Notes under the pieces: generated by a model
Told to the model about the DNA's origin: nothing
The model's input: only the letters and a program-made list of their open reading frames with translations
The model's database searches: none
Made by a program: the position numbers and the translations under genes
From: a virus
Reading direction: 5' to 3' (one strand)
IMG/VR virus record: IMGVR_UViG_3300023294_000099
Coordinates: 1 to 23,884 of that record
Length of the DNA stretch: 23,884 nucleotides
Part shown: positions 455 to 4,576 of the stretch, piece after piece
Numbering within the stretch: the first letter of the stretch is position 1
Layout: each line of letters begins with the position of its first letter

Positions 455-526
455 GAGCTTATAGCCTACTAATTACCACTTACTATGTAGTAAGCTAATA
501 ATCAATGTTTTCAGCTCTATAAGCTC
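455..526. repeat. 10-bp inverted repeat enclosing a second palindrome
   Basis: GAGCTTATAG at 455-464 is the exact reverse complement of CTATAAGCTC at 517-526. Between them is the near-perfect palindrome CTTACTATGTAGTAAG (479-494; seven paired bases each side of a TG centre). Just upstream are CTCC-CTAA-GGAG (446-457) and GTAAT-CATT-ATTAC (430-443). The right arm lies inside the 25-aa membrane ORF. The group could fold as RNA in the leftward transcript, or act as DNA sites such as operators or an origin. Confidence 0.5.
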
Positions 527-572
527 TTAATAAGATAAATACAATCAATACTATCAATGTTGGTATTACCAT
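495..572 (-). CDS. Tiny single-pass membrane peptide, 25 aa
   Basis: A 25-codon ORF runs from ATG at 572 to TAG at 497-495. Residues 2-15 (VIPTLIVLIVFILL) are a compact hydrophobic helix, followed by RAYRAENIDY, a positively charged then acidic tail. That arrangement is typical of a single-span peptide with the C-terminus in the cytoplasm. It follows the 143-aa gene by about 120 nt on the same strand; a 12-codon ORF (MMSFFGLIVTFK, starting near 641) lies between them. The function is unknown. The length is too short for statistical certainty, but the hydrophobicity and clean start and stop argue that it is real. Confidence 0.5.
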   Translation of the reverse strand: MVIPTLIVLIVFILLRAYRAENIDY

Positions 573-1121: not shown

Positions 1122-1152
1122 AATGTTGTGTATTTAGATTAAGTATAAAGGC

Positions 1153-1212
1153 ATACGGGTCTTTCCCTGCCAATAGTTAGCCCTGGGAGTTGTGATGGGA
1201 TACCTGTCGTAT
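1153..1212 (-). promoter_or_regulatory. Structured 5' leader upstream of the 143-aa gene
   Basis: Read on the minus strand, this GC-richer patch folds into nested helices. ATACG (1212-1208) pairs with CGTAT (1157-1153); GGT (1204-1202) pairs with ACC (1160-1158) with a three-base bulge; TCCC (1200-1197) pairs with GGGA (1167-1164); and an inner hairpin GCTAA-CTA-TTGGC (1181-1169) has one U:G pair. The wobble becomes a C:A mismatch on the other strand, favouring a leftward RNA. The fold ends about 31 nt before the ATG at 1121, the usual place for translational autoregulation or a riboswitch-like element. No known riboswitch class is recognised and no clear promoter for it is visible. Confidence 0.45.
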
Positions 1213-1410
1213 ATATCTACACAATCAATTTTTTATAATAAATAATTTAAAAAAATAATTTTTACCTAACTCTCATTATAAAGTACAAATACCACTTGTT
1301 ATGCTCACTATATTAAGTGTTATCTGCTATTTCTTATTAAGAATCATTCTAAATAAGGATTATTTTGTTAATGATATGTTAATTAATTAGGAATACCACT
1401 TTTAATGTTG

Positions 1411-1418
1411 TATATTTG
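1411..1418 (+). promoter_or_regulatory. Possible -7 element for the structured RNA
   Basis: TATATTTG fits the Bacteroidota -7 consensus TAnnTTTG and lies about 40 nt before the outermost helix of the structured region that starts near 1456. No TTG or TTTG is found 19-21 nt upstream, so only half of a promoter is present. A second match, TACCTTTG at 1469-1476, lies inside the folded region, with CTG at the -33 position. Which of them, if either, is used cannot be told from sequence. Confidence 0.25.
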
Positions 1419-1454
1419 CACTGTAGTTGACTCTATTGTTGCACACTGCACTTA

Positions 1455-1870
1455 TTTTGAGAGGTTAATACCTTTGGTTTGTAAGTATACAGGTGTAAAT
1501 AGGTTAAACTTGATGATATAAGAGGTGCAGTCAGTACTCAGAACACCAGAGTAAGTTAAGTGGTTAAAACCTGACAAGTACGATAACCCTAGTAATAGGC
1601 AACCTACCTCAAAGTTCTCAAATCAATTACATTTTCTGAATAGTAGTAATCCTAGCGTAAGCTTTCTTGGGTTTAAACCTACTATTCTTTTAATTAGACT
1701 CAATTAAAGAAGTAGTACTTAAAACTTATATATTATAAGTGAGAAGTGAGCTGTGTTTAAGCTATAAGTCTATAGTATATAGGAATTACCCTGTATATAA
1801 TACAACTTTAGAAGAATATTACCCACTATCTGTTACAATACGTAATATTAAGTATAATTCCTACTAGGTT
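1455..1870 (+). ncRNA. Candidate large structured noncoding RNA
   Basis: About 415 bases with no convincing gene but dense nested inverted repeats. A closing helix TTTGAG+AGGTT (1456-1466) pairs with AACCT+CTCAAA (1601-1605 and 1608-1613), 11 bp with a two-base bulge. Inside it are AGGTT/AACCT (1501-1505 with 1568-1572), AACTT/AAGTT (1507-1511 with 1553-1557), a possible pseudoknot (1524-1553) and CCTA-GTAA-TAGG with a GNRA loop (1588-1599). Next come GAATAGTAG/CTACTATTC (1638-1646 with 1679-1687, extended by AATCC/GGGTT), TTTAATT/AATTAAA (1689-1708), ACTTATA/TATAAGT (1724-1740), TAGGAATTA/TAATTCCTA (1780-1788 with 1855-1863) and, nested in that, AATATTAC/GTAATATT (1815-1822 with 1842-1849). 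U:G pairs such as 1650:1671 favour the plus strand. The 3' end would abut the promoter at 1893. Not all of these helices can form at once. No match to tRNA, tmRNA or RNase P RNA is recognised. Confidence 0.45.
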
Positions 1871-4523: not shown

Positions 4524-4562
4524 AGAAATTCCTAATATTTAATATTAAGGTAGTAGGAATTA
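4508..4562 (+). promoter_or_regulatory. Competing AGGAA/TTCCT inverted repeats ahead of a promoter
   Basis: ATTAGGAA (4508-4515) is complementary to TTCCTAAT (4529-4536), forming a hairpin around the stop codon. The middle arm AATTCCTA (4527-4534) is also complementary to TAGGAATT (4554-4561). The two hairpins exclude each other. The third arm lies where the -33 box of the promoter at 4577 should be. There is no T-run, so a simple terminator is unlikely. The full word TAGGAATTA (4554-4562) also occurs at 1780-1788, with its complement at 1855-1863, ahead of the 1893 promoter. A repressor or activator site shared by both promoters would explain this. Confidence 0.45.
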
Positions 4563-4576
4563 CTTGTTACCTGACA

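Follow-up and report, generated by a model that had tools for sequence, protein, structure and literature searches.

The window analysed here is a virus record of 23,884 bases, a fragment of an uncultured crAss-like phage. Among its proteins, the terminase, the portal and the major head protein have matches in PHROGs, a tail ring protein is recognised by Pfam, and its crAss001 auxiliary capsid protein matches Pfam slightly under the cut-off; since the terminase is also ~35–37% identical to those of gut crAss-like phages, the sequence matches identify the window as part of a distant, uncultured crAss-like phage, whose host is presumably a Bacteroidota. The site of interest is an 806-base gap between a minus-strand gene (690–1121) and a run of plus-strand genes from 1928, and no gene was found within it (1122–1927), in agreement with a preliminary description that had proposed a large multi-helix RNA in a gene-free region of ~415 nt. 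The divergent minus-strand gene is not the same across lineages, and its assignment as SSB-like was rejected, having no Pfam or PHROGs support. The leader of this gene (1150–1262, minus strand) consists of a GC-rich, hairpin-prone stretch (1150–1222) adjoining an AT-rich tract (1223–1262), and similar layouts precede unrelated minus-strand genes in sister phages.

Relatives were collected by a terminase search of IMG/VR, giving 51 loci, one of which, L038 (IMG/VR 3300004941_000001; terminase 85% identical to that of the window), covers the same gap. L038 2395–2659 aligns with window 1422–1696 at 83% identity; by columns, identity is 83% over 1423–1630 (L038 2396–2595) and 71% over 1631–1692, against 43% over 1263–1402, 35% over 1693–1850 and 35–55% for the flanking spacers overall, with nine homologous genes at 58–87% and most neighbours at 58–79%. 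By sequence comparison, the RNA region is a conserved island within a fast-changing spacer, and the stretch 1700–1870 is not conserved. Protein searches with the flanking genes returned no further relatives containing the region, no similar DNA was found in annotated phages, three pattern scans of viral contigs returned L038 and, beyond it, chance matches that fell almost entirely within coding sequence, and a pattern scan of genome contigs returned no match. A covariance model of the window RNA (R1) matched the window and L038, the only two sequences that carry it. Elsewhere in the window, positions 497–572 (minus strand), where no other gene is listed nearby, probably encode a tiny membrane protein of ~25 aa (MVIPTLIVLIVFILLRAYRAENIDY), with a similar counterpart in L038 when compared by eye.

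Covariation and conserved structure

A structure of 62 core pairs was folded from L038 alone and then tested on the window, where 60 pairs were kept and 2 broke; 8 pairs had changed on both sides yet still paired, and none had changed on one side, which supplies the covarying pairs that the preliminary description had proposed to seek in relatives. Under a null in which substitutions were permuted among like bases (20,000 trials), the mean was 0.88 double changes and no trial reached 8 (P < 5e-5). The reverse test, with the window folded alone and tested on L038, gave 7 double changes against 0.53 expected, and in a control with partners slid by 1–3 columns all covariation was lost on both sides. 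The consensus structure has 59 pairs, every one standard in both sequences, with its 8 compensatory pairs spread over helices P2, P3, P4, P5 and P6. Its elements, all on the plus strand, are:

1423–1630 (+): conserved core, 208 nt, 59 consensus pairs, 83% identity to L038, 8 compensatory pairs
1423–1430 with 1623–1630 (+): P1 closing helix, invariant in both sequences
1432–1503 (+): P2/P3 arm, apical hairpin 1460–1475, pair probability 0.97 or higher in the window and in L038; compensatory pairs 1432/1503, 1452/1484 and 1453/1483
1510–1621 (+): P4 (1510–1512/1619–1621, 1515–1516/1616–1617, 1522–1527/1605–1610), enclosing P5 and P6; compensatory pairs 1510/1621 and 1522/1610
1530–1534/1571–1575 (+): P5, compensatory pair 1533/1572; pair probability of the region 1530–1575 is 0.3 in the window and 0.6 in L038
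1535–1539/1549–1553 (+): P5a hairpin, within P5
1554–1570 (+): conserved unpaired stretch, within P5
1588–1599 (+): P6, GNRA tetraloop hairpin, compensatory pairs 1589/1598 and 1590/1597

P6 had been picked out earlier as a GNRA-capped stem and is borne out by its two compensatory pairs, the stem changing from CCUA/UAGG in the window to CUC/GAG in L038 and the loop from GUAA to GAAA, still GNRA. Several conserved pairs are G-U, and the pair 1432/1503 changes from U-G to A-U, which fixes the plus strand, as the preliminary description had favoured. No ATG, GTG or TTG frame of at least 50 aa lies in the RNA region, and indels relative to L038 are of 1–2 nt; protein coding is therefore excluded, and the conserved reading frame that would have spoken against an RNA is not present. 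We hold with high confidence that 1423–1630 is a real conserved structured RNA.

Folding energy separates the region from shuffled sequences weakly (overall z −1.2 to −1.4): for 1440–1880 the plus strand gave z −1.19 (12 shuffles in 100 did as well), the minus strand gave z +0.14, and the core (1423–1631) gave z −1.23. Counts of inverted repeats or hairpins alone are therefore no evidence, and the more than ten inverted repeats first described, though present, are as a set little above chance. The 11-bp repeat among these, 1456–1466/1601–1613, is absent from the predicted fold of either sequence; of its 11 pairs, two cannot form in L038, and its arms are taken up by P3 on one side and by the 3′ strand of P4 on the other. 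The helices 1780–1788/1855–1863 and 1815–1822/1842–1849 fall outside the conserved RNA, 1693–1850 being 35% identical. The length of ~415 nt likewise shrinks to 208 nt of conserved RNA, or ~270 nt including the 3′ domain, and both the closing helix and a promoter, which the first reading had missed, lie upstream of its start at 1455, which places the ends of the RNA near 1423 and near 1692. If the inverted repeats of this AT-rich spacer were due to chance and no functional RNA existed, the folding scores would be accounted for, and most of 1700–1870 is explained in this way; for 1423–1630 the explanation is refuted by the 8 compensatory pairs (0.9 expected) and the strong conservation of the core, and we regard it as extremely improbable.

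Promoters, RNA ends and the RNAs of sister lineages

The following features flank the core, the promoter type being the one known from Bacteroidota:

1411–1418 (+): Bacteroidota-type promoter −7 box TATATTTG, a TAnnTTTG match, expected start ~1423
1631–1692 (+): 3′ domain, 71% identical to L038, folding z −3.1 in the window
1638–1646/1679–1687 (+): terminator-like stem followed by TTTT, outer stem broken in L038
1655–1662 (+): GUAA hairpin, invariant in the window and L038
1670–1679 (+): palindrome GGTTTAAACC, invariant in the window and L038
1916–1923 (+): second promoter box TACCTTTG with a TTG −33 element, before the plus-strand operon, L038 counterpart at 2824

At the place aligned with the first box, L038 (2384) has a TACCTTTG box with a TTG −33 element; no well-spaced TTG −33 element was found for the window box. 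Since the boxes stand at the same place in both sequences, the expected 5′ end, 5 nt downstream of the window box, coincides with that of P1. The 3′ end probably lies near 1692 and is uncertain because the terminator-like stem, which had been described as a 9-bp inverted repeat and is present in the window, has lost 5 of its 9 pairs in L038 and is lineage-specific at best, so that read-through into the operon is possible. A motif, TAATTCCTACTA, occurs at 1854–1866 and, in inverted orientation, at 4551–4563 (minus strand), upstream of TACCTTTG boxes at 1916 and 4577, with a hairpin at 4526–4563 near the second copy; its interpretation as an operator was dropped, L038 having no clear copy.

In more distant relatives (L008–L028, L032–L041), the same divergent gap is occupied by a promoter and by an RNA of another kind, ~200–230 nt long:

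L016 7107–7330, L020 883–1110, L022 907–1135, L032 1469–1663, L041 6868–7072 and others: sister group A/B RNA at the divergent site

The core of this RNA reads CUUCAGGU...CCUGUUGG.UCAG, and its 3′ hairpin is terminator-like; RNAalifold gave 57 pairs, 13 with compensatory changes; no Rfam match was found. L026 and L032 are among the members in which, as read from the sequences, a TAnnTTTG box stands between the RNA and the first gene, and the group A RNA has at its 3′ end a conserved terminator-like hairpin, a short way from that gene. A covariance model (R2) built from 12 members matched L032, L040 and L041 at E ~1e-9 or better and, at E up to 5, gave no match to L038 or the window, and R1 gave no match in the sister lineages. 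Homology of the two RNAs was rejected after HMMs and CMs had been run both ways, the models detecting none. The sister RNA is like the window RNA in its divergent site, its order of promoter, RNA and hairpin, its covariation and its absence from Rfam, and differs from it in sequence and fold. The divergent site thus appears to hold an RNA gene in several lineages, the RNAs differing. A bolder suggestion, which we advance tentatively and consider rather doubtful, is that the divergent promoter region of crAss-like phages may be permanently reserved for an RNA of the infection period whose job is shared but whose place has been taken by unrelated folds in different lineages; the RNA of the window and that of group A/B might then be two of its occupants.

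Other RNAs were noted in passing. In other phages, apparently of Bacteroidota, an RNA of ~70 nt combines an H-type pseudoknot, whose stems covary, with the same CUUCAGGU...CCUGUUGG.UCAG hairpin as in the sister RNA, placed after the pseudoknot (66 of 66 cells pair, three pairs covary, no Rfam match):

L061 2725–2790 (−), L062 3855–3920, L068 938–1003, L074 3915–3983 (−), L076 6574–6642 (−), L077 9274–9342 (−): ~70-nt pseudoknot RNA

A Hatchet ribozyme match above the gathering score lies in a crAss-like phage contig (L027 4711–4913, minus strand), and DUF805b RNA motif matches lie in crAss-like contigs (L016/L017 2379–2413; L033 41–75, minus strand).

Proposed role

We give about even chances to the window RNA being a lineage-specific, separately transcribed, standalone non-coding RNA that acts in trans; its transcription, its ends, its independence from the operon and its mode of action are inferred. 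Transcription would start at ~1423 from the host-type promoter at 1411–1418, and the 5′ end would be sealed at once in P1; the chain would then fold into the long P2/P3 arm and the branched P4-P5-P6 arm, and the transcript would end near 1692, after the small GNRA hairpin, with the downstream operon driven by its own promoter (1916). Its action during infection may be that of a stably folded scaffold or decoy to which a protein of the phage or of the host binds. Antisense targets of the three conserved unpaired stretches, sought in part of the phage genome, were no better than those of shuffles, and this result, together with the sealed 5′ end, the RNA's own promoter and the separate promoter of the operon, favours a folded RNA acting through protein. 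The trans-acting reading is also supported by the sister lineages, which have a promoter, a covarying RNA and a terminator-like hairpin at the site; against it stand the two carriers only, the unremarkable folding energy and the window promoter without a well-spaced −33 element.

The RNA lies directly upstream of a long plus-strand operon and in the same direction, its 3′ stem and TTTT are terminator-like in the window, and the group A hairpin stands near the first gene, all of which would suit a cis-acting leader (an attenuator, riboswitch or put/nut-like antiterminator) in which transcription from 1411 would continue into the operon, the passage of polymerase through the 3′ hairpin being controlled by the structured leader. 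However, a second promoter box precedes the first gene in both the window and L038, the 230 nt between the RNA and the operon are not conserved (35%), and the terminator-like stem is broken in L038; we consider a cis-acting leader possible, on balance unlikely. Less probable still is a replication-linked RNA or origin element, by which the strand switch would hold an origin and the transcript would prime or regulate replication. The sign of the GC skew flips at the site, L038 retains the AT-rich tract 1223–1262 and sister lineages have one of the same kind, but the skew tracks the orientation of the genes, no iterons were found among the repeats, the compensatory G-U pairs act on RNA and not on duplex DNA, and no helicase-loader or initiator gene was identified in the window. 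The covariation-supported RNA of the window and the second family at the same place in sister lineages are defined targets for RNA-seq, knock-out and pull-down, and crAss-like phages include cultured gut members.

Comparison with known RNAs

An Rfam search, as had been proposed at the outset, returned no family by strict or permissive criteria: Rfam 15 gave no gathering match in the window, a permissive scan of 1130–1960 gave chance matches only, and the scan of L038 was likewise without a match. Neither ARAGORN nor Rfam matched a tRNA or tmRNA. With the covariation, these negative searches uphold the initial proposal of a new structured phage RNA that is not a tRNA or tmRNA, and both it and the sister RNA are families missing from Rfam. 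In the open-access literature searched, we found neither a matching RNA nor any account of crAss-like phages having a conserved structured RNA gene. Structured phage RNAs are a known kind, and in fold and sequence the window RNA fits no family that was searched.

GOLLD and ROOL, named in the preliminary description, are several hundred nucleotides long. The window RNA shares with them its place between phage genes and its nature as a structured non-coding RNA with several helices and GNRA loops, and unlike them is ~270 nt long (208 nt conserved), has no Rfam match and has no nearby tRNA genes; nothing links it to either. The formation of a homo-oligomeric RNA complex is a trait of GOLLD and ROOL (PMC12286853). 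Packaging in crAss-like phages is not known to involve an RNA. The phi29 pRNA is a phage RNA of a few hundred nucleotides or less with a junction fold and its own promoter; the window RNA and its L038 counterpart differ from it in having no match to the Rfam pRNA model, and the window RNA resembles it as a short phage RNA with a junction fold and a putative promoter of its own.
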